From IMG/VR virus record IMGVR_UViG_3300021425_001932, positions 1 through 25,944 of that record: a DNA stretch of 25,944 bases; one strand, given 5' to 3'. Positions 824 through 23,224 of the stretch are shown here, piece after piece (positions within the stretch are counted from its first letter, which is position 1; the number at the start of each line of letters is the position of its first letter). Made by a program: the position numbers and the translations under genes. This DNA comes from a virus. The notes beneath the pieces were generated by a model. The model was not told where the DNA came from, did no database searches, and saw only the letters and a list, made by a program, of their open reading frames with translations.

Positions 824-832
824 TTGTTAGGA

Positions 833-1810
833 ATGAATTGCCAGTTTTTAGATCATCAGGTTTGCATTAGAGCAGACGGACAGTATAGATTGTGCTGTAT
901 AAGTCTAGAAACTAATAATCAAGAAAATATTAAAACACACACTATAGAAGATTGGTTAAACAGTAACACGCATAAAGATGCCGTAGAAAGTTTTGCAAAG
1001 GGTGTTTGGCCAGATGCGTGTAGAACTTGTGCAAATAAAGAAGCACAAGGATTTCCTAGCAAAAGATCACAGGCTGATTTAGGACCTGGATTAAGTCATT
1101 TAGATTTAAGATTTGGCAATAGTTGTAATTTAAAATGTGTAAGTTGTTGGGAAGGTTCTAGCAGCAGTATTGCAGAAGAAGCAATAGAAATGCAAAAACA
1201 AGGAATTATTCCTGTTAATAATGTATTAGAAATTCCTAACTTTAATTGGGCAAGCGAAACAGCGATTGAACAATTAGTCAAGTATCCACTAAAAGAAGTT
1301 TACCTAACCGGCGGTGAACCTATGATGGTTAAACACTTACCTATGCTATTAGAACGTTTAGATAGCAATGTAGCAATACGATTTAATACTAACGGTACAA
1401 TTTACAATCCTAAACTAGAAAAATTATTAAAACGCTTCGATGTAGTTAATATGGCGATTAGTATCGATGCTATCGGAAAACGTGCAGAATATATTAGATA
1501 CGGAAGTAATTGGAATACTGTTGAAACAAACTTTAACAAGTACAAAGATTATTGTAGAGTGAGTATCACACCTACAGTCAGTGTACTAAACGAGCTGTAT
1601 ATGGACGAGGTATACAACTGGGCAAAACAAAATAACGTAGAGGTTCACTTAAACATTTTAGAAAATCCTAATTACTTAAATATTAATAAAGCACAAGACC
1701 CAGAACAACGAAAAAAGTTTGTAGATGTTATCACAAGACTTGATAGCTTTAGAAATATTAGCATAAAGGACTACTTGCCCGAAGTAGCACAAGACTATGG
1801 AATTAATTAA
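833..1810 (+). CDS. Radical SAM protein with N-terminal twitch/SPASM-like domain
   Basis: A radical SAM protein of 325 residues from ATG 833. An in-frame TTG at 824 is possible, but ATG gives the family-like beginning MNCQFLDHQVC. The N-terminal part has the half-SPASM (twitch) cysteine pattern: Cys3, Cys11, Cys21-Cys22, then CRTC at 63-66, likely to bind an auxiliary Fe-S cluster. The radical SAM core follows, with CNLKCVSC giving the CX3CX2C cluster at 98, 102 and 105 and GGEP at about 160-163 for SAM binding. It belongs to the same architectural class as the proteins at 6114, 11555 and 14668 and is the shortest of them. It heads a plus-strand set of four overlapping genes. It should generate a 5'-deoxyadenosyl radical to modify a peptide or sugar; the substrate is unknown. 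Confidence 0.88.
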   Translation: MNCQFLDHQVCIRADGQYRLCCISLETNNQENIKTHTIEDWLNSNTHKDAVESFAKGVWPDACRTCANKEAQGFPSKRSQADLGPGLSHLDLRFGNSCNLKCVSCWEGSSSSIAEEAIEMQKQGIIPVNNVLEIPNFNWASETAIEQLVKYPLKEVYLTGGEPMMVKHLPMLLERLDSNVAIRFNTNGTIYNPKLEKLLKRFDVVNMAISIDAIGKRAEYIRYGSNWNTVETNFNKYKDYCRVSITPTVSVLNELYMDEVYNWAKQNNVEVHLNILENPNYLNINKAQDPEQRKKFVDVITRLDSFRNISIKDYLPEVAQDYGIN

Positions 1811-2243
1811 AGAAAATATACAAAAGAAACGTGCTGTATTTTTAAAAGATAGTGACACCATTAGAAAGTATTGGTATGACAAAGATTCTAAGTGGATGCA
1901 ACAACACGCCGAGATACTAGATAAAGTACAACCGGGCTATGTTAAATATGTAGGTGAAAACTTTATCGACTTTACTAGATACGTAGGACTACCTGCAAGT
2001 AAATTAAAACATACTCCACAGTTCCGTGATGAGGTATGTAAATTTTGTATAGATCAAATAAACAACACACTACCGTATGCACACGGTGATTGGGTATTAA
2101 GTAATATCATAGTTGACGGTGATACTATGCGTATGGTTGATTGGGATAATGTTGGAATTTACGATTCTAAATCTATACACACAAAATTAAAAGCAGATTT
2201 GCAATCAGCATTTGGAGAGTTATTTGACCCCGCAAGCATTTAG
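1797..2243 (+). CDS. Minimal APH/choline-kinase-like phosphotransferase
   Basis: A 148-residue protein with the catalytic core of the aminoglycoside phosphotransferase/choline kinase superfamily. HGDWVLSN at 96-103 is the Brenner-type catalytic loop (Asp98, Asn103), and VDWDN at 114-118 supplies the metal-binding Asp (Asp115 or Asp117). Family members are usually about twice as long. Here the N-lobe is cut to roughly 90 residues with no recognisable glycine loop, and almost no C-terminal helical subdomain follows the DWD. It may be a streamlined sugar or small-molecule kinase, or need a partner. The ATG lies inside the end of the radical SAM gene (14-base overlap), implying translational coupling and a shared pathway. 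The motifs are clear; activity and substrate are inference. Confidence 0.65.
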   Translation: MELIKENIQKKRAVFLKDSDTIRKYWYDKDSKWMQQHAEILDKVQPGYVKYVGENFIDFTRYVGLPASKLKHTPQFRDEVCKFCIDQINNTLPYAHGDWVLSNIIVDGDTMRMVDWDNVGIYDSKSIHTKLKADLQSAFGELFDPASI

Positions 2244-3444
2244 TTACCCTACTGTAGGCCCTAATGGACTAATTTACATTCCGCCTTATGGACTAAACGA
2301 AAGTTTAGATTATATGCTAGTGGTTAATCCTAAAACATATGTTATTGAAAAGATTAAACTAGATGTAGATAAGTCCACAGAAAAGTGGCAAAAAGGTATT
2401 GTACACCGTAACTTCATTTATTTCTTACCTTACAACGAGAAAAATATTTTAGTATTAGATACCAACGATAATAGTATACAATACATTGAGGTTCCTATAG
2501 ACGGCCAAGGCAAATACATTCAAGGACACATATATAAAAATAAAATATATGCACTACCTTACGGTGAACACTCTCCATACAGTTACGCATTAATATTTGA
2601 TATGGATGCAAAATGGGTTAAGCAAATTGAATTGCGTATCCTACCAGACGATGAAAAGAAGTGGCACCAAACACAACTCGTAGGAAATACTATTTACGGC
2701 CTACCTAGAGGAGAAAACTTAGACAAGCATTTTAACTATGCTATTGAGTTTGATTGCGATATGGAAACATACTCACTCACCGACTTATCTAATCAATGGA
2801 TAGACTACGATAAACAGAGGCACTGCAATAAAAAATTTACAACACTTGCAAAAGTAAACGAAAAACTTTGGTCGCCGCCTTATAGCGAACACGAAGATTT
2901 TGATATTCTTGCAAAGTACAACAATGGTTGGACATTTGAAAAAACTGGTATTAAGGGCACTAGCAGAAAGTATTATTCACATACGGTTGCAAGTAACAAC
3001 AAGATATATTTCCCTCCGGCAGGACACGAAGAAGACTGGAGTGAGATGCTAATTGTTGATGCTATCAACGACACGTGGTACACAAAAGACTTAGGTATAG
3101 GTAAAGAAAGTAAAAAGTATTTTGCAGGAGCAGAAAATAGTCAAGGAAAAATATATTATATTCCTAGAGGCGGTTGTGTTTGTGAGCCAGAAGAAACTTG
3201 GAAAAGCCAAGGCGACCTAGCAGAAATATTAGTGATTGACACAGCAGACGATTCTAGTTATACTATAGATGTCGGTGAATACTTTACTGATAGCACAACT
3301 ATTGAAAAATATAACCAGTGTGTTATTGTTAACGATATCATATATGCGTTCCCATACGGCGAAAGTGAAAGTTTTCAAACTGTCCTAATTTTTGATACTA
3401 TTAAAGAAGAAGTTGTTACAACAATAGACTTAAATGACATATAA
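2224..3444 (+). CDS. Repeat protein, predicted beta-propeller (kelch-like)
   Basis: About 406 residues made of roughly eight repeats, each 43-58 residues long and marked by a strand motif like (I/L)Y-x-x-P-(Y/R)-G-E: IYIPPYG, IYFLPYNE, IYALPYGE, IYGLPRGE, LWSPPYSE, IYFPPAGH, IYYIPRGG, IYAFPYGE. After each motif comes a hydrophobic strand ending in a D-x-x turn (for example LIFD, VIDT). This spacing and strand pattern are typical of beta-propeller blades. No catalytic motif is evident. There is no ATG: TTG at 2224 is chosen because GGAGAG (2214-2219) lies just upstream, and TTG at 2212 is the alternative. It overlaps the kinase-like gene and the next gene, a paralogue. It could bind a glycan or protein or act as a lyase/epimerase-like propeller; I cannot tell which. 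Confidence 0.7.
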   Translation: MTPQAFSYPTVGPNGLIYIPPYGLNESLDYMLVVNPKTYVIEKIKLDVDKSTEKWQKGIVHRNFIYFLPYNEKNILVLDTNDNSIQYIEVPIDGQGKYIQGHIYKNKIYALPYGEHSPYSYALIFDMDAKWVKQIELRILPDDEKKWHQTQLVGNTIYGLPRGENLDKHFNYAIEFDCDMETYSLTDLSNQWIDYDKQRHCNKKFTTLAKVNEKLWSPPYSEHEDFDILAKYNNGWTFEKTGIKGTSRKYYSHTVASNNKIYFPPAGHEEDWSEMLIVDAINDTWYTKDLGIGKESKKYFAGAENSQGKIYYIPRGGCVCEPEETWKSQGDLAEILVIDTADDSSYTIDVGEYFTDSTTIEKYNQCVIVNDIIYAFPYGESESFQTVLIFDTIKEEVVTTIDLNDI

Positions 3445-4594
3445 AGCATTCGAAGACTGGTATAAAGAAGCAGAAATTAAGCATTTAATTTTGCAAGATA
3501 TAAATGGTGTGTTAGTATCGCCACCGTTTGCTACTGAGTTGTGCAAAGACTATACTTGGTTTAAGTACATTGTCAAAGGTGATACAAAATTAAATTTAGA
3601 TGTATTTTTAGATCTGCCGCCGGCAACAAGTAAAACTAACACTTGTGAATTAATCGGTGGAAACATATGGATGGTGCCTTACGGCATTTATGATGATTTA
3701 AACTTTGTCGTAGAACTTGATCTTAACAAAATTAAATTACATAAACTATCATTCGGCGGCAAAGGACAATTTTATAACCTAGCTTCTAACGGAGATGAAG
3801 GGTTTAGTTTTCCATTAGGTTATCAAGATACTAACATCGGACTACACATCAAGAACAGTAAAGTAACATCATATCCATTACCTACAAAAGGTAAAAAACT
3901 ACATATGGGTACTGTTTATTGTAATGGCAGTTTTTGGAGTATGCCTAGAGGTGATGATCCTGGATACAACACATTACTAGAATTTAACGGTAAAGAAATT
4001 GTTACACACGAAATCAAAGGTATTGACGATTCAATTACACGCAAATATACAGACATCATTGTTAAAGACAATACGCTTTATGCATTACCGTTTGGAGAAA
4101 CTGCTGGTCTAAATGAAATTGTAGAATTTAACACAGACACTAAAACTTACAAGTTGCATACAATCGATGGACACGACTTTGCTAAAAAATACAACACAGG
4201 TGTTTTAGTAGACGACACAATCATAGCATTGCCCTACGGTGAAGATTATAATGACGATAGCAATTGGGGGCTTGTGTTTGACACAAAAACTAAGCAAAGT
4301 TATCAGTTCGATATTGGATTAAAGTTTGGTGGCAAATATAGATTTAGAACAGGCATAGAATACAACAGTTCAGCATATTTTTTTCCGGCAGGCACACCTT
4401 CTTGTCCAATACTAAAAATATCAAAACAAGGTGATATAGAAAAAGAATTGTATATGAAAGATTGGCTTCTAGGAAGACCTATTGTTTATAATAATATGAT
4501 GTGTGTAATAGGATACAATTTAAAAAATAAAGACCATAAGATTTTTCAGTTTGACGCAGACTTAAATTTGCTTTCGCAAATAGATATCACTTAA
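3434..4594 (+). CDS. Repeat protein, predicted beta-propeller, paralogue of the upstream gene
   Basis: A 386-residue protein with about seven repeats of the motif seen in the gene before it: IWMVPYG (78), FSFPLGY (124), FWSMPRGD (167), LYALPFGE (215), IIALPYGE (263), AYFFPAGT (314) and a degenerate last copy near 357. Spacing is 43-51 residues, as expected for propeller blades. The first 70 residues lack the motif and may form a separate cap. The ATG overlaps the upstream stop by 11 bases, so the two are translationally coupled and probably arose by duplication. Its 3' end overlaps the oppositely oriented radical SAM gene by 33 bases, leaving no room for a separate terminator. No signal peptide is visible. 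Function is unknown; carbohydrate or protein binding is a guess from fold and context. Confidence 0.7.
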   Translation: MTYKAFEDWYKEAEIKHLILQDINGVLVSPPFATELCKDYTWFKYIVKGDTKLNLDVFLDLPPATSKTNTCELIGGNIWMVPYGIYDDLNFVVELDLNKIKLHKLSFGGKGQFYNLASNGDEGFSFPLGYQDTNIGLHIKNSKVTSYPLPTKGKKLHMGTVYCNGSFWSMPRGDDPGYNTLLEFNGKEIVTHEIKGIDDSITRKYTDIIVKDNTLYALPFGETAGLNEIVEFNTDTKTYKLHTIDGHDFAKKYNTGVLVDDTIIALPYGEDYNDDSNWGLVFDTKTKQSYQFDIGLKFGGKYRFRTGIEYNSSAYFFPAGTPSCPILKISKQGDIEKELYMKDWLLGRPIVYNNMMCVIGYNLKNKDHKIFQFDADLNLLSQIDIT

Positions 4595-5464
4595 ACAAGC
4601 ACACGTTGTCTTGCCACAAGTGATAGGCGCAGTAGGCATAGTGTAATTACTAATTGTTCCTAACTTGCCACCTTGTTCACATTCTGCACGATATATGTCT
4701 CCATACATATCAATCTTTATCATATGCAAGCCAGCCCAACAAGTCCAACCATAGTGATTGTTAAGTTCTTTAACAATTAAGTCATTTGCTGTCACTACCT
4801 CATCGTCGAGCATAATTTCTCCACGATGTAATTTATTATCGTCTAACTTCCTAAAATAAGGCCAGTTGCTTATTATGTCTTGCTGTTCTTGTGTGTATGA
4901 ACTAACTTTGTTAGTTACGTGATCTACACTTGTCTTGTCTACAATTACTTTAGGCCATATTGCAAGGGCGTCTGTAAGCGCATATAAGCGTTCTGCAACG
5001 CTTTCTTGTTCAGCAAAGTGCTCTGGTACCATCATTAAATTCAAAGCTACAGGGCAGTCTATAGCGTTTGCAACGTCTGCAATATGCTGTATGTCTGCAT
5101 ACTTAGGATGATAACTAATTATTATACCATCGCTCCACTGACTTATCTCTTTGTAGTAATCTACGCTTTGACTACCGTTAGTAAGGAAACTAAATGAATG
5201 TCCTTGTTGTTTAACTGTTTTTGCAAACTCAGTAAAGTGCTTCCAATATGTAGGTTCACCACCTGTTATTCTATAGCAAACTTCTTTACCCGGTAAATCA
5301 AAAGTCTTTACAAAATTAATCACATCGTCTTTGTTAGGCCAACCACTAGAACCATCGTGTAAGAAACTAGGACAATAGTCGCAACGATAGTTGCACTTGT
5401 TACTTAATGTCCAACTAACAAGAAACCAATTTTCTTTTTCTGCATTTTGATAAGTTAGCTTCAT
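4562..5464 (-). CDS. Radical SAM protein with short C-terminal cysteine-rich domain
   Basis: A 300-residue radical SAM enzyme. CNYRCDYC near the N-terminus gives the CX3CX2C cluster (Cys24, 28, 31) and GGEP lies at 68-71. The C-terminal region has further cysteines at 242, 262, 283, 288 and 290, an arrangement like a SPASM/twitch auxiliary cluster domain but compact. It is the counterpart of the protein at 8974-9960: both share (C)NY-x-C-x-YC and a GW-(T/S)-C-x-AG stretch before the auxiliary cysteines. It is the last gene of the long minus-strand run, its ATG overlapping the oxygenase gene's stop by 4 bases, and its 3' end overlaps the plus-strand propeller gene. The radical SAM assignment is firm; the substrate is unknown. 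Confidence 0.88.
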   Translation of the reverse strand: MKLTYQNAEKENWFLVSWTLSNKCNYRCDYCPSFLHDGSSGWPNKDDVINFVKTFDLPGKEVCYRITGGEPTYWKHFTEFAKTVKQQGHSFSFLTNGSQSVDYYKEISQWSDGIIISYHPKYADIQHIADVANAIDCPVALNLMMVPEHFAEQESVAERLYALTDALAIWPKVIVDKTSVDHVTNKVSSYTQEQQDIISNWPYFRKLDDNKLHRGEIMLDDEVVTANDLIVKELNNHYGWTCWAGLHMIKIDMYGDIYRAECEQGGKLGTISNYTMPTAPITCGKTTCACLSDIYLRKQI

Positions 5465-6117
5465 TCCGACATTGTGTTTTTTAAAATAAGATTTTGTGTA
5501 CGTTCATTTAGTTTTACGGTTAAAATTAAACTATACAAATTATTACTAAAACTAAAAACACTATGATCTAATTGAAAATTCGTAAAGTACACTGATCCTG
5601 GCTCTGGATATAACGGCTTCCCGTCTATCAGCTGCACATAGTTTTCAGGACTACAATTTCCAAACACAACTAAAAGTCTAAAATATTCTGGACTTACTCC
5701 GTGAAAATCTCTATGCGGAGGGAAAAATCCTCCTTGATCAACCCGTACTAAATGCACACGACCAATGTCAGGCGCAAATACGTCTACTAGTTTTGCTATC
5801 TCTGGAATCTTATGATACACCTCAGTTGGTGTATTAAAGTTTTCTTCTTTCATTTCAACATCGTGATAACGTTGCATATGTCCAAAGCTATTCAAATGAT
5901 AATTGTCCATTACATCGCCAGTATGGCTTGTTACAGGTAAACCCCATCTATTATTGTGTGTATCTTTTTTTGCATTATACGGACACCAATTGTCTTTGAA
6001 CTGTTCTAATTGCTGTTGTACAGCATAATGATCAATCTGCCATTTTAATTTAACTTGATTACCTAAGTTAACAAGGCTTTGCCAACGTAATCCTCTTTCA
6101 ATTTCTTCCGGGGTCAT
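5461..6117 (-). CDS. 2OG-Fe(II) oxygenase-like protein with atypical cosubstrate site
   Basis: A 218-residue protein with the cupin pattern of aspartyl/asparaginyl beta-hydroxylases. VRVDQGGFFPPHRD at 124-137 places the HxD iron ligands at His135 and Asp137, and DHSVFS gives the distal His185. Ten residues after that His, where the family's 2-oxoglutarate-binding Arg is expected (Arg206 in the protein at 63-770), this protein has Tyr195. It may bind cosubstrate differently, use another residue, or be non-catalytic. It overlaps both flanking radical SAM genes by 4 bases (ATGA-type coupling), so it is produced together with them and plausibly acts on the same substrate. The fold call is moderately confident; activity is open. 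Confidence 0.65.
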   Translation of the reverse strand: MTPEEIERGLRWQSLVNLGNQVKLKWQIDHYAVQQQLEQFKDNWCPYNAKKDTHNNRWGLPVTSHTGDVMDNYHLNSFGHMQRYHDVEMKEENFNTPTEVYHKIPEIAKLVDVFAPDIGRVHLVRVDQGGFFPPHRDFHGVSPEYFRLLVVFGNCSPENYVQLIDGKPLYPEPGSVYFTNFQLDHSVFSFSNNLYSLILTVKLNERTQNLILKNTMSE

Positions 6118-7409
6118 ATATTCCTCAATTCTTCAAACGTTTCTCTAAAATTTAAATCTCTGTTACTATCACTTATTTCTAAGTATTCTACTGCGGCTGA
6201 AAGTTTATGTGACCAGTCCTCACTATTCATATAATCAACAAGACCTAGCCAACGTTGTTTACCATATTTGTTATTAATAAACTCTTTTGTGTTGTATGAA
6301 TTAGCAAATGTACTTATAGAATGTGACACCTGTTTCTTGATATCTTTGGGTAGCACTTTTATATTTAAATAGCTAGGCAAATAAACTAAATGTAACCCTA
6401 TAACACCTGCTCCGTAAGGTGCAGCATTTATTTTTTTAAAGTTTTGATCTATTTTCCATTCTGCTAGTTCTACTAAACTGCCTACATTTAATAGCTGAAC
6501 TGCACAAGCCATATTAACTGTAACATTTTTATTAGTGTTATCTAACTTGTGCATATTAGAAACTAAACTATCCCAGTTACTAGGATAGCGAATGTAATCA
6601 TTTTTTTCGCCTACTGCATCAATACTAAAGTTAAATTTGACTTCCTTAAAATGCTTCCATAAGTCTAACAGTTTATCACTTATATCAGTGCCGTTTGAGT
6701 TATAACGTAATACACATTTCTTTGCGTGGCCTTCTGCTACCATAAATTCTAATATAGTATAATGTTCTGGTATCATTAAAGGTTCGCCGCCGGCAAAGTA
6801 TAGTTCTTTAATATTTTGTGCTTGTCCCTTAACTGAATTAAGAAACATACTTTTCTTATACCAGGCGTAATCAAAGCTAGGATCCCATCCTTGATCTTGT
6901 TTTAAATCTTTATTTTTATATTTAGGATATTGAAGTTTCCAATCCTTAATCCAACTTGAGCTGTCGTGAGGACTACACATAATACATTTTAAATTACACA
7001 TATTACCTAGGCGCAAATCAAAGTAAGGAATATTTGGCGGCACAGTACCGTCTCTTTTAGTTTGCAATACAATGCTATCAATGTCTAATCGCTTGCTCCA
7101 TACTTCTGTTTCCCAGTTGCGTTTACTTTTAATTCCCTTACTTTCTTCTTCAAAACACTTACGACAACTTGCAGGAATTTCTCCACGCAACATCTCTAGT
7201 CGTGTATTACGCATTTGGCGACTATTAAAAACTTCTTCAATAGTATGATCACGTAAATTCATATTAACGCCATCTTTTTTAACAAGTCCTACTTCTTTGT
7301 CGTCTGTAGTACCAGCACCACTAGCGTTAGCAGTACAACACACTCGTACATCTCCATTAGGACGAGTTGCTAAATGTATCCAAGGTAATGGACAAAAAGT
7401 TTCGCTCAT
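6114..7409 (-). CDS. Radical SAM protein with N-terminal twitch/SPASM-like domain
   Basis: The largest of the CC-type N-terminal twitch class here, at 431 residues. FCPLPWIHLATRPNGDVRVCC gives Cys6 and Cys24-25, a Glu-rich 'HTIEEVFNS' helix follows, and CRKC at 82-85 completes the auxiliary cluster set. The radical SAM core has CNLKCIMC with Cys138, 142 and 145, and GGEP at 207-210. Downstream, 'FSIDAVGEKNDYIRYPSNW' closely resembles 'ISIDAIGKRAEYIRYGSNW' in the protein at 833-1810, marking recent common ancestry. The ATG overlaps the methyltransferase-like gene by 4 bases and its end overlaps the oxygenase gene by 4. Chemistry on a peptide or sugar substrate is expected from the family; the substrate is unknown. 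Confidence 0.9.
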   Translation of the reverse strand: MSETFCPLPWIHLATRPNGDVRVCCTANASGAGTTDDKEVGLVKKDGVNMNLRDHTIEEVFNSRQMRNTRLEMLRGEIPASCRKCFEEESKGIKSKRNWETEVWSKRLDIDSIVLQTKRDGTVPPNIPYFDLRLGNMCNLKCIMCSPHDSSSWIKDWKLQYPKYKNKDLKQDQGWDPSFDYAWYKKSMFLNSVKGQAQNIKELYFAGGEPLMIPEHYTILEFMVAEGHAKKCVLRYNSNGTDISDKLLDLWKHFKEVKFNFSIDAVGEKNDYIRYPSNWDSLVSNMHKLDNTNKNVTVNMACAVQLLNVGSLVELAEWKIDQNFKKINAAPYGAGVIGLHLVYLPSYLNIKVLPKDIKKQVSHSISTFANSYNTKEFINNKYGKQRWLGLVDYMNSEDWSHKLSAAVEYLEISDSNRDLNFRETFEELRNI

Positions 7410-8005
7410 TTCTTTTTTCCTATAAGCATATAACGTTCGTACTTAGATGTAGGAAAGGTTCCTCTAAAGTACGGCTTAATTTTGCTCATCTTTGTAAAGT
7501 CAGTTAAATCTATAGAACAACGAATGTGTTCGTCTAGGTCGAAATAATTATTACTTTGAAGTACAAAAACTGCATCGCCTGGCTGATTAGACAACCATCG
7601 CTCATACTGTTCTTGTGTTATATGCTCACAACTTGTGTTTATTACAACATCGGCATCTGTTTTAAAATCGCACATATCTGCTGTAATTGCGCTAAATTTT
7701 CCTTGCATCTCATAACGTTTATTAATTGTATATGCTATATTTTCGCATAATGGGTCTATATCTACGCTTGTAATGCGTTGTATGCTAATTTTAGAATTAA
7801 ACAGTATACTTGCTAAAACTCCGTTCCAACCACCGTATATGACGATATTTAACGGTTTAACCGGTACAAATCCTAGTAGTTGTTCAGCTAGCCATACTTT
7901 GCTGTTTACTTGCCCTTTCCAAAAGCTCTCAAGGGTACGATACCTATCCTCGCTATTACGAATAGCATCCATCCAAAATAATACGTCTTGTATATCAACT
8001 TTCAA
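7406..8005 (-). CDS. Class I SAM-dependent methyltransferase-like protein
   Basis: A 199-residue protein with a Rossmann-type nucleotide-binding pattern. LNIVIYGGWNGVLASIL at about 52-68 corresponds to methyltransferase motif I (glycine-rich loop, here GGWNG), VDIDP at 81-85 to the acidic residue after strand 2, and DADVVINTSCEHI at 117-129 to strand 4, where a proline- or asparagine-containing motif usually sits. The start is TTG at 8005, supported by AGGAG six bases upstream (8012-8016), so the unusual start looks real. It overlaps the radical SAM genes on both sides. It probably methylates a pathway intermediate, though a non-catalytic Rossmann protein is possible. Target unknown. Confidence 0.6.
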   Translation of the reverse strand: MKVDIQDVLFWMDAIRNSEDRYRTLESFWKGQVNSKVWLAEQLLGFVPVKPLNIVIYGGWNGVLASILFNSKISIQRITSVDIDPLCENIAYTINKRYEMQGKFSAITADMCDFKTDADVVINTSCEHITQEQYERWLSNQPGDAVFVLQSNNYFDLDEHIRCSIDLTDFTKMSKIKPYFRGTFPTSKYERYMLIGKKK

Positions 8006-9960: not shown

Positions 9961-11518
9961 ATAACCACTCAAAGTTGTTTATTAACTGAAGGTCAGCCCC
10001 GCTAGAAAGGCCAAACTCCATACCAGCGGCAGCGCCTGCCAAAGCATATTTGCCAAATGGTCTATCGTGTCCCACGGTTGTCCAAGTTTTAAGTCTTGCG
10101 TCTGTTTCATTGTCTACTTGTCCTCTTATTGTTTTTGATGATAATTTACAGCATTCTCTAAATGCTGATCTCCACGTATTAAATTCTGTTGTTGCAAAGT
10201 TTGTAATATTACTTACTTCAGGCATTGCATTAAATTTAGTAGAAATACTAGTTGTCATATCTGTTTTTGTAACATCCATTGCTAATGTTTCTTTTACAGG
10301 AAATAATTTAACGCCTCCATAACCATATTCTAAATTGTTTATTGGATTACGACTTCTCCAGACAAATACGTTATCCTTTTGCCACTTAGGTACCTGATAG
10401 TTAAGCTCAAATTCATCTAATAATTCAGCATCTCCATCAATAACCCAAAACATAGTTGTTGTACATAACTTAGCAGCTTCAATATGTGCTTGATGTATGC
10501 CTTTTACTCCGTCAACACGTTTGGCTCTAGGATAGCGTTTGAGTAATTGCTCGTAGTGCTTATCAGCATTAGGTTCGTTGTAACTAATAAACACAATATC
10601 ATAAGGCTTAGGAATACTAACCAGGTGCGAAATTTCTTTCTTTTTAGTATGCCAACAAAATTCATACTCTCTTCGAGAAATATATCTGTCTTTGTGCTGT
10701 AGCATTACACCGTCATTGTACAACCCATTTTTAAAAATATGTATGTTGTCTTTTTCCCAATAAGGAATTTGATAATCAAATGTAAAGTCTGTTTCTACAT
10801 CACCGGGTATGATCCAAACAAACTCACTAGTAACTGTTGTTAGTTGTGTAACGTAATCATCATAATCACTAACAGTTATTTGTTCATAATATTTAGGAGT
10901 CGAAGCAACAATGTCTACTTCTTTCTTGTTTGTAAAGAATCTATAATCATATTCTCGTTTAGAAACATACTTGTCTTTATGTTGTAAAAATATTCCATCA
11001 CTATATGCGCCATTTTTAAAAATATGAATTACATCCTTTTCCCAATAAGGTGCTTGGTAATCAAAATTAAAATCTACGTTTAAATCTGTAGGAATTATCC
11101 AGACAAATTCACTAGTAATATTTTTTAATTGTTGTAGATAATCATCATATGTACTAACAACTATTCTTTCATAATTGATCGGATTAGATGCGACAATATC
11201 AACTTCTTTTTTATTTGTAAAAAATCTGTACTCTAATTCTCTTTTTGCAGGTTCTGCTTTTTTAGGAAATAGACATACTCCGTCAAAATTTTGACGGTTT
11301 TTAAATACGTGTATGTAATCCTTACTGTATTCGTCTATCTTATAATCAAATGAAAAGCTATCGTTAATTTCAACGTCCGGCCAAACTGCCCAAAAGAACT
11401 TTGTAAAACACATCGAATTAGCCGTAGCAAAATCTTTTGCTAACTTTGCCGTGGGGTAATTACTCTTTAATTTGCCGAATTGTTCTCCGTCAGAACCTAT
11501 GAAAATGATATCATACAT
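9929..11518 (-). CDS. Glycosyltransferase-like protein with tandem N-terminal repeats
   Basis: A 529-residue protein. The C-terminal part (about 306-529) matches the single-domain protein at 18628-19524. Shared features are a (V/I)FxSYxEPNA segment, an acidic VIDGDAE motif (359-364; VDADN in the paralogue) resembling a GT-A DxD site, an aromatic W-R-(S/A)-(A/G)-FRE segment, and a final FEWL. Ahead of it lie about three modules of 95 residues (42-137, 138-232, 233-about 302) that echo the same core (FxW...D...FDY...KD-x-IH-x-FKN...DG...L) but lack the full acidic motif (WPDVE, PTDLN, PGDVE). This looks like module duplication followed by decay of active sites. The start is ATG 11518 without an obvious Shine-Dalgarno, after a rare 36-base gap in the run. 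A sugar-transfer role is inference. Confidence 0.6.
   Translation of the reverse strand: MYDIIFIGSDGEQFGKLKSNYPTAKLAKDFATANSMCFTKFFWAVWPDVEINDSFSFDYKIDEYSKDYIHVFKNRQNFDGVCLFPKKAEPAKRELEYRFFTNKKEVDIVASNPINYERIVVSTYDDYLQQLKNITSEFVWIIPTDLNVDFNFDYQAPYWEKDVIHIFKNGAYSDGIFLQHKDKYVSKREYDYRFFTNKKEVDIVASTPKYYEQITVSDYDDYVTQLTTVTSEFVWIIPGDVETDFTFDYQIPYWEKDNIHIFKNGLYNDGVMLQHKDRYISRREYEFCWHTKKKEISHLVSIPKPYDIVFISYNEPNADKHYEQLLKRYPRAKRVDGVKGIHQAHIEAAKLCTTTMFWVIDGDAELLDEFELNYQVPKWQKDNVFVWRSRNPINNLEYGYGGVKLFPVKETLAMDVTKTDMTTSISTKFNAMPEVSNITNFATTEFNTWRSAFRECCKLSSKTIRGQVDNETDARLKTWTTVGHDRPFGKYALAGAAAGMEFGLSSGADLQLINNFEWLYEQFQQNTVE
10823..11395 (-). repeat. Two adjacent in-frame direct repeats of about 285 bp
   Basis: The units 11108-11395 and 10823-11107 encode residues 42-137 and 138-232 of the glycosyltransferase-like protein; a third partial copy continues leftward to about 10613. 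Protein identity between the second and third copies is very high (for example YWEKD-x-IHIFKNG), and the DNA is also visibly similar: compare the stretches starting near 10731 and 11014, both with tttttaaaaatatg. The high similarity suggests recent duplication or ongoing recombination. Confidence 0.8.
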
Positions 11519-11554: not shown

Positions 11555-12691
11555 CTATTTTAATTTGTGTTTTTTGAGCGTTGTTGTTAGTTCTGGCCAT
11601 AGCTCTTCAAAAGAATATTTTTTGTCGGGATGGAATTTTGTTTCTAGCTCTTGAGTGTATTTGAAAAAACCGTGATCTACAGTAGGTTTGTCGTGCGAAA
11701 GATCTGTCCTATATTCTTCTAGTCTTGCAACTGCTGTATATTTGTCTCTGTGCTTTTCCAATACTCTGTTAATTTCTTGTTTTGCTGTTGTACGCATTTC
11801 TTTAGGTAGATCAAAAACACTAAAATGACTTGGGTTTAATATTGCACACCAATAGATATCATTTATTCCTCTACCGTCAATCTCATCATAAAATTCCATT
11901 AGATTAAATGCAGTGTATATGTTGTACATAGGATGAATGTTTACTTCTCTTACACGTTCAACTAGATATTCTAAGTTTTCCATAAGAACATTCCATTCTG
12001 CTCTGTGTCTTACGTATTCAAATCTAGGGCCTACATTTTCAAAACTTATACCCCAAGATACATTTGGAAACTCATTAATTATTTTTTGTGCAACTTTATT
12101 TGTTTTTAACGGAACACTTAAATTAGTTAAAATATAGCCTTTTGTTTCGTTATCAATAATATCAAATAATTTATGATTTTCTTTTTGTAGTAGAGGTTCC
12201 CCTCCAAGCAAGTTTATATTTGAAATTGTATCTTTGTTCTTTTCAATATAACTTAACAAGTCTGTCGAATCTTTTAATGGATCCATATACTTGTTTAAAA
12301 TTTTTGCCCAAATGCTACTAAAATATTCATAACAATAATTACACGCTAAGTTACAAGTATTACTCCAACGCAAGTCTATCTGTTGAAGGATAAAATCTTC
12401 TTCAGTTAGATCTTTCATCTCTTCGTATTTGTACAGAGCTCCTAACCGTTCTGTGTGAGCTCCTACGCCTTCGAGTTGAGCGCATTGCGAACAGTTTTTC
12501 ATATCCCATTTGCCCGTAACAATACCACGTCTAATCTCTTTTGCACGTTCACCGTTTACAATTTCTTCAATTGTTTGTGTGTTTAGATCTCCAAGTTCAT
12601 CTCTAGCTGTACAACAAGTTTTAACTTTGCCATCTGCACCTAAAAATATACTGTCAAAAGGAAAACTACAAAATGTTTTCTTGTCCATCAT
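11555..12691 (-). CDS. Radical SAM protein with N-terminal twitch/SPASM-like domain
   Basis: A 378-residue protein of the CC-type N-terminal twitch class. FCSFPFDSIFLGADGKVKTCC provides Cys8 and Cys26-27, 'TQTIEEIVN' follows, and CSQC at 67-70 completes the auxiliary set. The radical SAM core has CNLACNYC (Cys113, 117, 120) and LLGGEP ending at 166. It resembles the proteins at 833, 6114 and 14668 but differs downstream: 'WGISFENVGPRFEYVRHRAEW' occupies the position of the 'SIDA/SIDG' segment of the others. Two ATG codons in tandem begin the gene. It overlaps the SGNH-like gene by 4 bases and is followed by the only sizeable gap in the run. Substrate unknown. Confidence 0.9.
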   Translation of the reverse strand: MMDKKTFCSFPFDSIFLGADGKVKTCCTARDELGDLNTQTIEEIVNGERAKEIRRGIVTGKWDMKNCSQCAQLEGVGAHTERLGALYKYEEMKDLTEEDFILQQIDLRWSNTCNLACNYCYEYFSSIWAKILNKYMDPLKDSTDLLSYIEKNKDTISNINLLGGEPLLQKENHKLFDIIDNETKGYILTNLSVPLKTNKVAQKIINEFPNVSWGISFENVGPRFEYVRHRAEWNVLMENLEYLVERVREVNIHPMYNIYTAFNLMEFYDEIDGRGINDIYWCAILNPSHFSVFDLPKEMRTTAKQEINRVLEKHRDKYTAVARLEEYRTDLSHDKPTVDHGFFKYTQELETKFHPDKKYSFEELWPELTTTLKKHKLK

Positions 12692-13461
12692 TTTTCTAAT
12701 CCTAATTTTTTTCTTAGTGCTGTTCCAACTTTTTCTCCGAAGGTATTTGCAATTTCGTGCCTAGGGTGATGAAACCCGTGTGTAGGGTTTTCATAGTCAC
12801 CGTGTTCTATTTCCATCCAAAAGCTATAACCAGGAATAATACACGTTCTTTCAATATTAATTAATTCATTCCATATAGACTGTGTAACTTCACTTTTATT
12901 ATGTAAATCTGTGTAAGGATAATGCACAGTTTGATAACAGAACTTATAATCCTTTAGCAATCCTTTTAACGAATAAAACCCTACTACAGTGTCATAAAGA
13001 TAATCGTCATCGGTCCAAGTTTTTAATATTTGATTTCTTAGTTTAGGATTCGGCCACGATCCGCCCATTGGCAAACCATAATGTGTTTTTCCATTCTGAA
13101 ACCAAGTGTATCTATCAGAACTAGTAAGTCCTACAAAAATTAAATCATCTTTTTGTATAAATCCACTTTGAATATCTTCTACTACATCTAAAAATATAGC
13201 CTTGTTACTTTTACCTGCGTGAGCTCTGTTTATATAATCATCAGCGTTAATAGAGACTGCAATTTTTGCTGCATAACTTTTTTGTGCCATTATTCTTTCA
13301 TATCTATCACGATCGTACTGTTTAGTATATTTTTGATAGAAAGAATCAACTCCTAAGGCCTTTTTTTCTTTGTCTATTGTAAGATGATGTTTTCCGGTTA
13401 ACCAGTCATCTGCAAGTTCTGCACCCTGCGTGTAACTGCATCCGTATGCTATAAGTCGCAT
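12688..13461 (-). CDS. SGNH/GDSL-like hydrolase
   Basis: A 257-residue protein. The N-terminal strand plus YGCSYTQG (Ser9) corresponds to block I of SGNH esterases, where the nucleophile serine resides. Near the C-terminus, HGFHHPRHEIANTFG at 228-242 looks like the catalytic His block (HP-x-x-x-H pattern, His232 or His235). The middle section 'DDLIFVGLTSSDRY' may form the oxyanion block. In surface-glycan clusters such proteins often add or remove acetyl or other ester groups; whether this one does is inference. It sits two bases after the radical SAM gene at 13464 and overlaps the next by 4 bases. A second gene of this type begins at the left edge of the window. Confidence 0.65.
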   Translation of the reverse strand: MRLIAYGCSYTQGAELADDWLTGKHHLTIDKEKKALGVDSFYQKYTKQYDRDRYERIMAQKSYAAKIAVSINADDYINRAHAGKSNKAIFLDVVEDIQSGFIQKDDLIFVGLTSSDRYTWFQNGKTHYGLPMGGSWPNPKLRNQILKTWTDDDYLYDTVVGFYSLKGLLKDYKFCYQTVHYPYTDLHNKSEVTQSIWNELINIERTCIIPGYSFWMEIEHGDYENPTHGFHHPRHEIANTFGEKVGTALRKKLGLEK

Positions 13462-13463
13462 TT

Positions 13464-14678
13464 CTACCTCACAAACCTAGATGGATTTTCAATATCATCG
13501 TGTGTGAAGATTTTATCAATTGAACTACACTGCCCACAAGTATCAGCACAAAATGCCATCTTACCTTTCTTGACACTCTTTTTATCCCAAGTATCAGCAA
13601 ACACTCTGTTTAAGTGTCCTTCTTTTAAAATGTCTTCTAGACTATGTAAATTTAAATCAAATTTATCCCAACCGTAGTCATTCATTGCTTTATGTAATTG
13701 CAAACTCTTAGGTTCTGAATATGTACCGTTCAAATGTGTTCCAATATAACAACAGGGCATAACACGACCAAAATTGTCTACAAATATTTCGGTGCCAAGA
13801 AATGTTTTACTTTTACAACTAATTTTCATCCTATCATACTTGGAGTCTGGCGCTATACTATCATAAACTCGTTCAACTTCATCTTGATAATTTTTAGATG
13901 ATTTTTCTTTTTTCATTTTGAAATAATCGTCTCTATTAAACGGATAATGTTGTTGTTGAACAGGTCCGGCTGGACTCTCTAGGTTTCTGTTTTTTGGATT
14001 TTCAGGTGCGTCAATCCAATAGTCTAACTCGCCATCTTTTGTTAAGGCGGGCATACGTTGTAATGCAACACCATTATCTACTCCTAATGCTTTTTTAGGA
14101 ATAAATTCTGAAATGTTAAGTTCTTTACACTTTTGTTTAGCTTCTTCTAACTGGTGTTCGTTATGCTTAAAGATTAAATAGTCCCAGGCACTTACAGGAT
14201 TATGTTTTGTAAAAGCACGAACGTTTGCTTCTAGCTTTTCCCAAACAACATTCCTGCGATAGATATGATTAGTATCTTCTAATCCATCGATGCTAAACGT
14301 TATTAACCATTCTCTACTTTTATATTTTGCAAATAATGCACCCATCTTATCCCACCATTCAGGAGTTCTCATACCTCCATTGGTGTTCATCATTATTTTT
14401 GTGTTAGGCGATGTTTCGCCGATATATTTGCAAATTTCATATGTGTCTCTAGCAACACAAGGATCACCGTGAACACCACAAAACAGTATTAGTCTAGTTT
14501 GTTTAAGTATGTCATCAGGAAAATACTTTTTAAATAATTCTAGCGTTATTTGGCCTGTTTGCATATCAGGACGAATAAGAGGACTATTATTATGAAATCT
14601 TACACACATAGGACAAGCAGCGTTACACGCATTTGTTAGTTCAATATGTATTTGTACGAGGTTCTCATCAGTCCACAT
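13464..14678 (-). CDS. Radical SAM protein with C-terminal SPASM-like domain (CGVHGDP type)
   Basis: The start is ATG 14678 (404 residues), with AGAGG nine bases upstream; an in-frame TTG at 14684 is also possible but would sit too close to that site. CNAACPMC gives Cys18, 22 and 25. GGEP is replaced by CGVHGDP at 67-73. The C-terminal SPASM-like region has Cys288, Cys309-310 (VMPCCY), a 'SLEDILKEG' helix, and Cys377, 381 and 384. It is a longer paralogue of the protein at 7995-8981, with an insert of about 60 residues before the SPASM region. It overlaps the upstream radical SAM gene by about 11 bases. Confidence 0.9.
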   Translation of the reverse strand: MWTDENLVQIHIELTNACNAACPMCVRFHNNSPLIRPDMQTGQITLELFKKYFPDDILKQTRLILFCGVHGDPCVARDTYEICKYIGETSPNTKIMMNTNGGMRTPEWWDKMGALFAKYKSREWLITFSIDGLEDTNHIYRRNVVWEKLEANVRAFTKHNPVSAWDYLIFKHNEHQLEEAKQKCKELNISEFIPKKALGVDNGVALQRMPALTKDGELDYWIDAPENPKNRNLESPAGPVQQQHYPFNRDDYFKMKKEKSSKNYQDEVERVYDSIAPDSKYDRMKISCKSKTFLGTEIFVDNFGRVMPCCYIGTHLNGTYSEPKSLQLHKAMNDYGWDKFDLNLHSLEDILKEGHLNRVFADTWDKKSVKKGKMAFCADTCGQCSSIDKIFTHDDIENPSRFVR

Positions 14679-15873
14679 TTTCAATTACCTCTTTGTATTC
14701 CTTAAAGGTATCAGCAAACTTTTCTTCTCTGTATGCATCGTGAAGTTCGGTAGTTAAGAAAAGTTTCTCCCACACTTCTTTATTAGGTTTACCATTTCTA
14801 ATAAACTGAATTACTCCCGGCAAGTGCTGCCACGTATTTGTATAGTCTTTTGAAATAGATTCTAATTCTTCAATCACTTTTTCTTTTACACCGTCTGGCA
14901 AAATACTGATATTGTAATGATCTGGTCCGTGTACAAGATTTAGATAATGTCCCATATCACTAAAATTCTTATAGTAAAAATCTAATGTTTCTTTGAGATT
15001 GAAAATATTCAAAGTGCTCAAGGTAATACACCAACTAAGCGACAAATTCGGATATTCTAATTTAAATTTTTGTGCGTTTTTTAAATTAGTCATTAGTTCC
15101 GACCATTGCGCAGGATGACGCATATATTCAAATCTTTCGTATATGCCGTCGATGCTAAAACTTAAATTAACTGATTTAAAATGTTTCCATAATTCTACTT
15201 CTTTTGGCCAATGTGTACCGTTAGTGTTATAATGCAATTCAATATTTTTTGAATAACCTTTTTCTACAGCAATACGTAATAGTGCCCACATCTTTTTACT
15301 CATAAATGGTTCGCCGCCATAAAAGTCAAACTGTCTTACATTAGGAAGTGCTTCTTCAATGTCGTCCCAAAACGGACTATGTTCGTCATAGCTTTTATAG
15401 TACACATCCATTGTTTTTGCCCAGTCTCTATAACTTACTTTGTGAGACTCGTAAACATCGTAGTATTCTTTCATCCACTTACTACTAATAGCTGGCATAC
15501 AAGTTCTGCATTTGATGTTGCAAGTGTTACCTAAATTAAGTTCTACCTTGGCTAGTCCTTCATATGGGTCTTGTCCGTTAGAAAGATCCCATTCGTAACG
15601 ATGGTTGTCGCGGATACGCTTTGAATCTCTTCCGGCATCTTCCTCTTCCCAACATCTATGGCAGGCAGAATGACGCTTACCATTTTGTAGATCATTTCTA
15701 ATTTCGTTCCAAAACTCTCTATTAAAGTGCTTGTCTAGAGAATCAACACCTAGTCGCATTTCATCTCTCTCAGTGTCAATCATACAACAGATTTTTGTAG
15801 AACCATTATTATCGCCACTCATAGAATGACAAGCGTTTACGCACCAAGAATGTTTATTTTTGTCATTTATCAT
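14668..15873 (-). CDS. Radical SAM protein with N-terminal twitch/SPASM-like domain
   Basis: A 401-residue protein of the CC-type N-terminal twitch class. Auxiliary cysteines are Cys11, Cys15, Cys29-30 and CHRC at 71-74. The core cluster is CNIKCRTC (Cys118, 122, 125), and FYGGEP ends at 189. The segment 'LSFSIDGIYERFEYMRHPAQW' matches the SIDA/SIDG segment of the proteins at 833 and 6114. The extra 'MPAISSKW' after the cluster resembles the (S/P)xxSxxW that follows the cluster in several family members here. It overlaps the CYHP-type radical SAM gene upstream by 11 bases and the CGVHGDP-type gene downstream, so three different radical SAM classes follow one another directly. Confidence 0.9.
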   Translation of the reverse strand: MINDKNKHSWCVNACHSMSGDNNGSTKICCMIDTERDEMRLGVDSLDKHFNREFWNEIRNDLQNGKRHSACHRCWEEEDAGRDSKRIRDNHRYEWDLSNGQDPYEGLAKVELNLGNTCNIKCRTCMPAISSKWMKEYYDVYESHKVSYRDWAKTMDVYYKSYDEHSPFWDDIEEALPNVRQFDFYGGEPFMSKKMWALLRIAVEKGYSKNIELHYNTNGTHWPKEVELWKHFKSVNLSFSIDGIYERFEYMRHPAQWSELMTNLKNAQKFKLEYPNLSLSWCITLSTLNIFNLKETLDFYYKNFSDMGHYLNLVHGPDHYNISILPDGVKEKVIEELESISKDYTNTWQHLPGVIQFIRNGKPNKEVWEKLFLTTELHDAYREEKFADTFKEYKEVIENVD

Positions 15874-17230
15874 AATTGTCGTATACCTTTTTGCACTGAT
15901 TGTAAAAGTCCTCGTACATAGGAAATGTTTTAAGTAAATCTGTGCCTAGTCGTTTATCGTTTTCTTTAAAGAAACTATAAAAGTCTCTTCTACCTTGATG
16001 TATTTTTTCTTTATCTACTGGATTCTGATCCGCATAGTCTCGAACACGCTTAAACTTCTCATATTCTACATCAGTAAACCAATCTTTATTATCTGCAATA
16101 AACTTTAAAGTGTCGTCCATATGCGGCATTAAAAAGTCTCTTGGTAAAATATTTAACATCCAATGCGGCGGCTCTTTAAGATAAGGTACATCAAACTGTA
16201 TCTGATGTAATCCTTGTGATCCAATCTCTTTACGCCAATGCATTACACGCTTTAAAAAGTTTTGATATGTTGCAACACATAGAACATTGTAAGTACACAT
16301 AATACCAATTTTAAAACCTCTGCTTAATGCTTCTTTAAAATTCTCTTCCCAATGGTCGCACTTCAGTCCAGTACGCATATACTCTGCTTGCTCGCCCCAT
16401 CCTTCAATACTAGTATACAAAGAAAAGGATTTAATTTTCTTTTGCTCTAATAAACTTTGCACCCTATCAAAAAATTTAATCATTTTATTTTTGGTTACAC
16501 CTAAATTAGTGTTAATAGATATTTCTAACTGTGGTGCTGGTTCTTTCTCTAGCAAATCAAAGAACTGCATCGATCCTGGATTCATTAAAGGCTCACCACC
16601 TGTAATTCTTAGTGTCCAGAGATCCTTACGTAAACTAGGCCACCATTTCCAAAATGCTTCAATATAAGGATTGTCATCTTTAGGACCATAGTATGTTCCC
16701 CAATCTAAAAAGTCAATACCATACTGATTGTAAGTTAAATCATAGTTGCCGTGTTTTTTAATTTCGTCCATCCAAAGAGTGCTTGCTTGTGGACAACAAT
16801 AACCGCAACGATAATTACATCCGTTACCAAATGAAACTTCTAAATAACGTGGATTTACATTTTCGTCCCAGGCTTTTTCTCCTAAACTTTCTAGTTCATT
16901 AATTGCAAAAGAACTTGAACTATGAATCATTCTATCTGAGATATGATCTCCTTCAAGATCTTCAATATTCCAGCAGTAATAACATTCGTCTGGTCTACCA
17001 CCTTCTAGCATTGTTTTACGCTGTTGCTTTTTATGTTCGGTGTTGTGTAACGCTGCCGGATCTGCTTCAATTTCGTGTATCGGAATATGATGCGGTCTAG
17101 GATGATAACAACTATGATTGTCACCTGTGTGCAGGTACAGTGTTTGGTGCCACCATTTCATTGCACAAAATCCAGGACCAACTTTATTCAGTCTATCTCT
17201 AGTATTTTTTATTGTTTTAACGTCCTGCAT
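15863..17230 (-). CDS. Radical SAM protein, CYHP-type N-terminal cysteine domain
   Basis: A 455-residue radical SAM protein. The N-terminal auxiliary region has Cys22, then SCYHP at 40-44 where related proteins have CC, a conserved 'LHNTEHKKQQRKTML' helix and CYYC at 83-86. The core cluster is CNYRCGYC (Cys138, 142, 145) with a further Cys146, and TGGEP ends at 214. A proline-rich 'HPRPHHIP' follows the CYHP, so a histidine may replace one cysteine as a cluster ligand. It is a tandem paralogue of the next gene upstream (17217-18635); both share the 'AEYMRTGL/AEYIRNGL' segment, a C-terminal 'KRLGTD/KRRNTD' motif and overall length. It overlaps both neighbours by 11-14 bases. Confidence 0.9.
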   Translation of the reverse strand: MQDVKTIKNTRDRLNKVGPGFCAMKWWHQTLYLHTGDNHSCYHPRPHHIPIHEIEADPAALHNTEHKKQQRKTMLEGGRPDECYYCWNIEDLEGDHISDRMIHSSSSFAINELESLGEKAWDENVNPRYLEVSFGNGCNYRCGYCCPQASTLWMDEIKKHGNYDLTYNQYGIDFLDWGTYYGPKDDNPYIEAFWKWWPSLRKDLWTLRITGGEPLMNPGSMQFFDLLEKEPAPQLEISINTNLGVTKNKMIKFFDRVQSLLEQKKIKSFSLYTSIEGWGEQAEYMRTGLKCDHWEENFKEALSRGFKIGIMCTYNVLCVATYQNFLKRVMHWRKEIGSQGLHQIQFDVPYLKEPPHWMLNILPRDFLMPHMDDTLKFIADNKDWFTDVEYEKFKRVRDYADQNPVDKEKIHQGRRDFYSFFKENDKRLGTDLLKTFPMYEDFYNQCKKVYDNYDK

Positions 17231-18635
17231 TTATATCCTCGCATTTTTTAATAAACTGTTTCATTTCCGGAAAAGTTTTATTAATGTCAGTATTTCTTCG
17301 CTTATCGTGTTCTTTAAAAAATGTATTAAAGTTTGCCATTGCTATCTGTTCGTCATCAGTATTTAATGGTTGTTTAGCCCATTCTAGTAGCCTTCTGACT
17401 TTATCTACTTCGTAATCTTTAAATCCTTTAAATCTGTTTAGTGCAGTTTCGGGATTTTCTTTCATATAGTCTATGCTCTGTTGTAACGAATCTAGCATTT
17501 CGTCTGTTGCTAACTGCATACTCATCCATTTAGGATCGTGTAACATTGGCGTGTCAAACCATATAAGTTGTCTATCAGTATTAAACGTTTTACGTAATTG
17601 ATGTATTTGCTTAATATATTCTAACCAATTAGGTAAACTTAATATATTTGCTGTAATGATAAATGTAATACTGTGCTTGCTAGATTCTTTTAAATATTGT
17701 TTAACATTTTTGTATAATACCTCAAAATCTAATCCGTTACGAATATACTCTGCTTGTTTGCCCCAACTATCTAAACTACAAAATAGCATAAAATGATCTA
17801 CAGCGTTATTGTCGGTAATTTCTTTTAAGCTAGTCATAAACTTTTGCCACTGATCGCCTGGCGGACAACAATTACTAGTAATGCTTAATTGTAGCTCTTT
17901 GTGAGGATTTTGCTTTACATAATCAAACACTTTAAAAGTATTTTTATCCATAAGCGGTTCACCGCCTGTCATACGAAATGTTTTTAGTGTAGGATATACT
18001 GTAGGGAACCATTCCCAAAATGCTTTTACATAAGGGTTATTAGGAGAATTGTCAATACCTAAACTGTCTACCCATCTAGGATCATTATGATTACCTGTTG
18101 ATAATTCATATGCTCCGTGTTGTTTTACTTCTTTATGCCATTCTGTACTTAGATGAGGAGAGCAATATGCACACTTTAGATTACACGCTTGATTAAAGTT
18201 TACTTCTAAATATTTAGGTTTAGGATTTTCATCTATTTGTGCTGCCTCTATAAGACCTGGCTCATACACATCTTTACTACGATATGCACGATCACTTAAA
18301 TTGCCTTGATCTTCTAGTGCCCAACAAAATTCACACTCTTTGGGACGTTCGCCTTTGAGCATTTTAGCACGTTGCTCTTTTTTATACTTTGTATTGTGCA
18401 ATGCATCAGGTGATTCTTTAAGTTCTTCTAGAGGAATATTATGTGCAGGTGGATGATAGCAACTATGTGTTTTTCCAGTAGGCAAGTGTAGGCTTACGCT
18501 ATACCATTTTGCTAAACAAAAACTAGGACTAACTGTATTAAGTCCTTTTATTAAATCGTTTGTGTCTTCAAAATATTGGCTTTTGTATTTTCCTTTATAG
18601 AGTTTTACCTGATCACCTTTAATATTTTCAGACAC
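17217..18635 (-). CDS. Radical SAM protein, CYHP-type N-terminal cysteine domain (tandem paralogue)
   Basis: A 472-residue protein, the largest radical SAM protein in the window. N-terminal auxiliary region: Cys40, SCYHP at 58-62 and CEFC at 101-104, with 'LHNTKYKKEQRAKML' between. Core: CNLKCAYC (Cys151, 155, 158) and TGGEP ending at 227. The first 30 residues are an extension absent from its tandem copy at 15863-17230. The start is GTG at 18635 with AAGGA a few bases upstream, overlapping the end of the glycosyltransferase-like gene by 8 bases. Side-by-side placement and shared motifs point to duplication followed by divergence, perhaps toward successive steps on one substrate (inference). 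Confidence 0.9.
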   Translation of the reverse strand: MSENIKGDQVKLYKGKYKSQYFEDTNDLIKGLNTVSPSFCLAKWYSVSLHLPTGKTHSCYHPPAHNIPLEELKESPDALHNTKYKKEQRAKMLKGERPKECEFCWALEDQGNLSDRAYRSKDVYEPGLIEAAQIDENPKPKYLEVNFNQACNLKCAYCSPHLSTEWHKEVKQHGAYELSTGNHNDPRWVDSLGIDNSPNNPYVKAFWEWFPTVYPTLKTFRMTGGEPLMDKNTFKVFDYVKQNPHKELQLSITSNCCPPGDQWQKFMTSLKEITDNNAVDHFMLFCSLDSWGKQAEYIRNGLDFEVLYKNVKQYLKESSKHSITFIITANILSLPNWLEYIKQIHQLRKTFNTDRQLIWFDTPMLHDPKWMSMQLATDEMLDSLQQSIDYMKENPETALNRFKGFKDYEVDKVRRLLEWAKQPLNTDDEQIAMANFNTFFKEHDKRRNTDINKTFPEMKQFIKKCEDINAGR

Positions 18636-23216: not shown

Positions 23217-23224
23217 TATTTATA
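23217..23224 (-). promoter_or_regulatory. T4-type late promoter octamer TATAAATA
   Basis: An exact TATAAATA on the minus strand overlaps the stop codon of the upstream fibre gene and lies 30 bases before ATG 23187. This is the T4 late promoter consensus (recognised by gp55-type sigma). The position suits a leader of about 20 bases containing GAGGAA at 23196-23201. Confidence 0.65.

Follow-up and report, generated by a model that had tools for sequence, protein, structure and literature searches.

The IMG/VR virus record IMGVR_UViG_3300021425_001932, 25,944 bases long and analysed whole (the window in what follows), derives from a large aquatic phage, has a coding fraction of 98.9% and encodes ten radical S-adenosylmethionine (SAM) proteins, R1 to R10, together with tail-fibre genes (F1 to F3) and glycosyltransferase-like genes (Table 1). 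All ten open reading frames were confirmed, the coordinates in the initial annotation being their left ends. The motif CX3CX2C is present in the ten proteins and absent from the remaining 16 of the window, with 0.07 of ten expected from shuffling. GGEP occurs in eight; R4 and R7 carry GDP at the equivalent place. The PF04055 (Radical_SAM) profile matched 10/10 with E-values between 3e-14 and 1e-4, nine of them above the gathering cut-off and R10 under it (23.0 vs 29.5 bits), and ten were found once more when the record was searched in six frames. R1, R3, R6, R8, R9 and R10 also exceeded the cut-off of 170 of NF033640, the N-terminal-twitch radical SAM model (213-412 bits), with R2, R4, R5 and R7 below it (24-54 bits). 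Motif and profile searches thus bear out the initial annotation, which had called ten CX3CX2C radical SAM proteins, most of them with GGEP.

According to their identities, the proteins group as R9/R10 (36%), R4/R7 (29%), R2/R5 (27%) and R1/R3/R6/R8 (22-28%). In the alignment of each family, about four additional cysteines are conserved as a single set: C40, C59, C101 and C104 in R9/R10; C6, C24, C82 and C85 (R3 numbering) in R1/R3/R6/R8; C236, C255 or C256, C312 and C316 in R4/R7; C272, C292, C313 and C318 in R2/R5. This points to a single auxiliary cluster of the twitch type in each protein. Full SPASM proteins were rejected, since the conserved cysteines are too few for two auxiliary clusters. 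Of the earlier claim that the extra cysteines are typical of SPASM/twitch clusters, only the twitch-like part therefore stands; PF13186 was matched only in R1 (weakly), R3, R4 and R6. With one auxiliary cluster per protein, the complete set of ten would hold about 20 [4Fe-4S] clusters. CX3CX2C is kept in 793 of 820 homologues from related contigs, and the enzymes appear to be intact and maintained by selection. An identity with prokaryotic viperin was discarded (best score 41 bits against the NF038283 cut-off of 180).

Nine of the genes had been described as a single overlapping run. R2 to R10 do share one minus-strand run, with R1 on the opposite strand, but only R7 to R10 are contiguous. R2 to R6 are interleaved with a methyltransferase-like gene, the conserved O5 family, a repeat/glycosyltransferase-like protein and an SGNH gene, and the run has gaps of 2 and 36 bp.

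That the contig is phage DNA is supported by F1 and F2, homologous to gp358-gp360 of phage PA5oct, which are annotated in the PA5oct record as detected by mass spectrometry (MS), and by the T4 gp23 genes of two long relatives, G001 (282 kb) and G002 (219 kb). As gp23 is not in the 25,944-base fragment itself, the lineage is placed via these relatives, whose gp23 is nearest to those of the jumbo T4-like phages Phosso, Vibrio phage 2.275.O, PA5oct and CBB (66-72% identity). The same gene order was recovered from other metagenomes: L009 spans F3 to O7 at 58-93% identity, and L102-L104 span R6 or O7 to R1/O1 at 98-100% identity. Identical order in independent assemblies, together with gp23 in the relatives, makes a chimeric contig or a bacterial island hardly conceivable. 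No bacterial relative turned up, either, when GTDB contigs were scanned for R10 and R3 by exact peptide patterns, a search that is not exhaustive. Neither R10, O9 nor O13 matched any of 50,697 phage records. Rfam and tRNA scans found nothing, and promoter sites in the first 12 kb were no commoner than in shuffled sequence.

R7 to R10 are the conserved core, while R1 to R6 are an exchangeable second block. Block A has the order fibre, fibre, O13, two GT8-like genes, O10, O9, sometimes O7, R10, R9, (an R3-like gene), R8 and R7, and was counted in 23 non-redundant loci (63 R10 loci are related in all). An O9/O7 gene lies directly upstream of R10 in 20 of the 23, a fibre gene is found at most 7.5 kb upstream in 17 of the 19 testable loci, and R9 is among the next three genes after R10 in 17/17. 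In G002, all four radical SAM genes lie within 4 kb behind the fibres. Block B (R5, R4, O6, R3, O5 and R2, often with O1, R1 and O2-O4) is conserved by itself in 80 R3-centred loci, often away from fibres; the two blocks are joined in the window. Gene order, family membership and the catalytic and auxiliary cysteines are retained, and the set recurs by the same fibre family. The conservation of the run in relatives and its association with fibre genes, the latter for block A, were thereby confirmed. Pfam counts of radical SAM genes are 4 in G002, 10 in the window, 19 in G001, 23 in G003 and 22 in G012, the last two being close relatives. The densest case is L073-L074 (G003, 1-40 kb), where about 22 of the 23 matches, a B12-binding type among them, fall in a single run of 40 kb.

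Table 1. Genes of the window, with the evidence for each assignment.
Gene	Assignment	Position	Strand	Evidence
O1	Aspartyl/asparaginyl beta-hydroxylase-like (PF05118)	63..770	-	Pfam E=1.3e-14; adjoins R1 in related loci
R1	N-terminal-twitch radical SAM	824..1810	+	PF04055 2.4e-11; NF033640 2e-68
O2	Small APH/kinase-like protein	1797..2243	+	PF01636 E=0.003, below cut-off; conserved in 32 loci
O3	Beta-propeller/kelch-like, paralogue of O4	2212..3444	+	Weak PF24681 match; blastp
O4	Paralogue of O3	3434..4594	+	blastp
R2	Radical SAM, C-terminal auxiliary Cys, paralogue of R5	4562..5464	-	PF04055 3.5e-10; Cys inventory
O5	Possible 2-oxoglutarate/Asp-hydroxylase-like (tentative, no Pfam match), beside R3	5461..6117	-	Weak O1 similarity; >50 loci
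R3	N-terminal-twitch radical SAM	6114..7409	-	NF033640 3.4e-123; AlphaFold pLDDT 90.7
O6	Small methyltransferase-like, beside R3/R4	7406..8005	-	Weak PrmA/Methyltransf_25 matches of homologue; 77/80 R3-centred loci
R4	Radical SAM, C-terminal SPASM-like domain, paralogue of R7	7995..8981	-	PF04055 2.9e-9; PF13186 1.9e-8
R5	Radical SAM, C-terminal auxiliary Cys	8974..9972	-	PF04055 3.2e-14
O7	Internal repeats and C-terminal O9-like glycosyltransferase domain	9929..11518	-	blastp to O9 1e-28; related loci
R6	N-terminal-twitch radical SAM	11555..12691	-	NF033640 7e-63
O8	SGNH/GDSL-like hydrolase (tentative)	12688..13461	-	Weak PF00657 match of homologue; O8-type in 26/63 R10 loci
R7	Radical SAM, C-terminal auxiliary Cys, fourth of core quartet	13464..14684	-	PF04055 1.2e-8; conserved order
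R8	N-terminal-twitch radical SAM, core quartet	14668..15873	-	NF033640 2.2e-96
R9	N-terminal-twitch radical SAM, core quartet	15863..17230	-	NF033640 1.2e-91
R10	N-terminal-twitch radical SAM, core quartet, first after glycosyltransferase	17217..18635	-	NF033640 2e-98; 63 related loci
O9	GT-A-fold glycosyltransferase-like	18628..19524	-	Invariant DxD (D64, D66); model pLDDT 85.6; Foldseek
O10	No assigned family, between glycosyltransferases, fast evolving	19517..20092	-	Conserved position
O11	GT8/mannosyltransferase-like	20080..20913	-	PF11051 21.7 bits vs cut-off 22
O12	Paralogue of O11	20897..21793	-	blastp 3e-9
O13	Small conserved protein at fibre/cassette junction	21780..22133	-	51/63 R10 loci
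F1	Fibre/virion protein	22189..23187	-	Homologue of MS-annotated PA5oct gp360
F2	Tail-fibre protein	23220..24740	-	Homologues: PA5oct gp358/gp359 (MS-annotated), CP220 tail fibre
F3	Fibre protein, cut by contig end	24787..25944	-	Homologues in related loci

The initial annotation had regarded such a density of radical SAM genes as undescribed. This does not hold, as the Campylobacter phages CP220 and CPt10 were published in 2010 as having 11 and 12 radical SAM proteins, respectively, which were termed 'highly unusual' (PMC2853527); our own Pfam count for CP220 is also 11. A T4-like ocean genome, TARA_ERS488813_N000010, has 12 such genes and an A-type iron-sulphur (Fe-S) carrier, read as Fe-S metabolism, and the accessible part of that paper does not describe their arrangement or a fibre linkage (Nishimura et al. 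2017). Moreover, fibres, glycosyltransferases and radical SAM cassettes share one variable region in the host-recognition cluster of pelagimyophages (Zaragoza-Solas et al. 2020, PMC7029224). That cluster is recognised by its position between VrlC and gp14, genes that lie outside the window. What appears to be new is the organisation, that is, a conserved fibre-glycosyltransferase-radical SAM quartet recurring behind one fibre family. No paper describing this module was found in the literature covered, which is incomplete.

CP220 and CPt10 (Firehammervirus) resemble the window in having R4/R7-type and R2-type homologues and an exchangeable module of five radical SAM genes with two NDP-sugar transferases (CP220) and an amidinotransferase. 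In CP220, an F2-like tail fibre lies about 5-20 kb from the radical SAM/NDP-sugar-transferase cassette. The features of this module in the window are at least five radical SAM genes, sugar transferases and a nearby fibre, whereas the amidinotransferase is found only in relatives, whose marine family the CP220 enzyme matches at 7e-45. In contrast to the window, the cassette sequences compared contain no homologue of the N-terminal-twitch R10/R3 families, and gene order and phage lineage differ. Pelagibacter phage Mosig (EXVC030M) shares R4-, O6- (methyltransferase-like), SGNH- and carbamoyltransferase-type genes. It has only two radical SAM matches, however, and the relatives of the window are nearest by gp23 to PA5oct, Phosso and CBB. 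The two Mosig genes (L190 7962-8597 and 10862-11686) carry an annotation as molybdenum cofactor enzymes, which their resemblance to the R4/R7 and R2 types makes doubtful.

In the rhizobial jumbo phages Phosso and Atu_ph07 (470-490 kb), an F2 homologue precedes a cassette holding all four radical SAM genes of each genome. None of these matches a window protein at E<0.01, but one Phosso protein matches R2-type homologues of related loci (4e-10), so the families are different and not wholly unrelated. In PA5oct, the fibres are accompanied by neither a cassette nor any radical SAM match.

A tailoring pathway, as had been suggested, is the likeliest reading of the radical SAM set. We tentatively favour a soluble sugar/glycan-tailoring pathway of the tail-fibre operon, with a product that probably decorates the tail fibres; its sugar-type substrate and its fibre acceptor are putative. 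Related loci contain sugar-type partner families (UDP-glucose/GDP-mannose dehydrogenase, GT9, SDR and SGNH) as well as an amidinotransferase, homologous to that of CP220, and a carbamoyltransferase, shared with Mosig. O9, with its invariant DxD, looks like a GT-A glycosyltransferase, and its Foldseek neighbours are mostly glycosyltransferases, with a probability of about 1 to GT-A enzymes. In profile searches, R4/R7 fell on the cytosylglucuronate decarboxylase BlsE (1.6e-8), and the R3 family aligned through its N-terminal domain with the twitch domain of BtrN. BtrN, SpeY and BlsE act on sugar-type substrates. Like the window proteins, they combine a radical SAM core with one auxiliary cluster; unlike them, R1, R3, R6 and R8-R10 have the auxiliary domain at the N-terminus, and the similarity is weak. 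Single-sequence PDB searches with O9 and R3 returned nothing.

In this scheme, SAM would be cleaved at the [4Fe-4S] cluster of each radical SAM enzyme and a hydrogen abstracted from a sugar-type substrate, while the auxiliary twitch cluster would accept or donate an electron, in the manner of BtrN-type dehydrogenases or BlsE-type decarboxylases. Along with O6, O5/O1 and the SGNH enzymes, the radical SAM enzymes may make one or more unusual sugars, a synthesis that the UDP-sugar dehydrogenase, amidinotransferase and carbamoyltransferase could join in the relatives. The GT-A and GT8-like enzymes would then transfer the sugars, most likely onto new tail-fibre proteins encoded immediately upstream. 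Such decoration could tune receptor binding or shield the fibre.

Several observations weigh against this proposal. Many radical SAM genes are not near fibres, namely those of block B and about 12 genes of G001 at 230-261 kb, and the window itself lacks the UDP-sugar dehydrogenase, amidinotransferase and carbamoyltransferase, which come from relatives. The global TM-scores of O9 to solved glycosyltransferases are only about 0.3, and the BtrN match is weak (E=0.002). Phosso and Atu_ph07 are mutually related and thus not independent cases. Finally, the fold of R3 matches the peptide maturases CteB, SkfB and SuiB as well as MoaA, anSME and BlsE; since it fits both kinds of enzyme, the fold does not settle between sugar and peptide, and the structure search was too unspecific for a substrate to be assigned.

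The closeness of R3 to peptide maturases would also suit radical SAM enzymes that modify the fibre proteins directly, by epimerisation, cross-linking or C-methylation, alongside separately acting glycosyltransferases. The common operon with the fibres fits this idea, and the Asp_Arg_Hydrox and weak PrmA-like genes, which would take part, are of protein-modifying types. We nevertheless think it rather unlikely, as sugar-type partner genes are dense, the profile of R4/R7 is nearest to a sugar-nucleoside decarboxylase, and no recognition element/PqqD of ribosomally synthesised and post-translationally modified peptides (RiPPs) is found among the Pfam matches of the window. The last point applies equally to a small-molecule or RiPP pathway producing an antibiotic, a cofactor or a signalling molecule. 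Combinations of radical SAM enzymes with amidinotransferases and carbamoyltransferases do occur in secondary metabolism, and the twitch enzymes resemble BtrN and BlsE. However, the dense coding with overlapping genes leaves no room for a separate precursor gene, and the constant fibre linkage of the core quartet also speaks against such a pathway, which we regard as improbable.

The sugar-type genes could instead serve to remodel the host surface polysaccharide during infection, for superinfection exclusion or diversified O-chains, as has been proposed for the glycosyltransferases of similar clusters in pelagimyophages and cyanophages (PMC7029224, PMC7824862). Against this, the 26 proteins of the window have no transmembrane segments, and neither a flippase (PF01943) nor an initiating transferase (PF02397) was found in 12 records, with positive controls working. 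The cassette is also co-linear with virion fibre genes, for which late expression is expected. Given the lack of membrane machinery and this co-linearity, the acceptor is more likely to be the fibre than the host envelope, and host-surface remodelling accordingly seems unlikely to us. It counts against fibre decoration, in turn, that the missing membrane steps could be supplied by the host.

The heavy Fe-S demand initially proposed is plausible: of the five longest records with R10, four (G001, G002, G003 and G005) contain genes for A-type Fe-S carriers (PF01521). Neither a ferredoxin (PF00111) nor a PaaD-like gene (PF01883) scored above the cut-off in the ten records searched, so the reductant is presumably host-supplied. 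These carriers, like the 2017 interpretation of Nishimura et al., would agree with an auxiliary metabolism in which the radical SAM proteins support host cofactor or Fe-S metabolism. This is very improbable, since the identities tried and rejected (MoaA, QueE, NirJ and AhbC/D) are all far below their cut-offs.

Reports of crowded radical SAM genes in phages go back to 2010 and offer no explanation beyond metabolism. The fibre-linked position, the soluble sugar enzymes and the lack of membrane machinery provide a testable hypothesis in which radical chemistry decorates receptor-binding fibres. The conserved link to the fibres suggests that phages use such chemistry for unusual sugars on their own fibres or on the host surface. 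If true, many uncharacterised phage enzymes would be tied to host recognition and evasion, and phages would be a source of many new sugar- or protein-modifying radical enzymes. It is tempting to go further, though with even more reserve, and to propose that, in several lineages of T4-superfamily phages, radical SAM cassettes have repeatedly been recruited by the tail-fibre genes and that the fibres bear modifications made by radical chemistry (unusual sugars or residues), as a general virion-tailoring system so far unrecognised in phages.

Some partner genes deserve a comment. No curated name was obtained for O5, O6, O12 and two CP220 partners, and O2 had only a kinase match far below the cut-off. 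In about 30 related loci, O2 and the paralogous O3/O4 (window 2212-4594) are kept together with R1 as a unit. O7 has a repeat motif around FFTNKKEVDIVAS...FVWIIP...FDYQ.PYWEKD.IHIFKNG, followed by its O9-like domain. A QueC-like ATP-pyrophosphatase gene recurs among the radical SAM genes of 17 R3-centred loci (e.g. L163, L166, L168 and L178), possibly as a further tailoring step.

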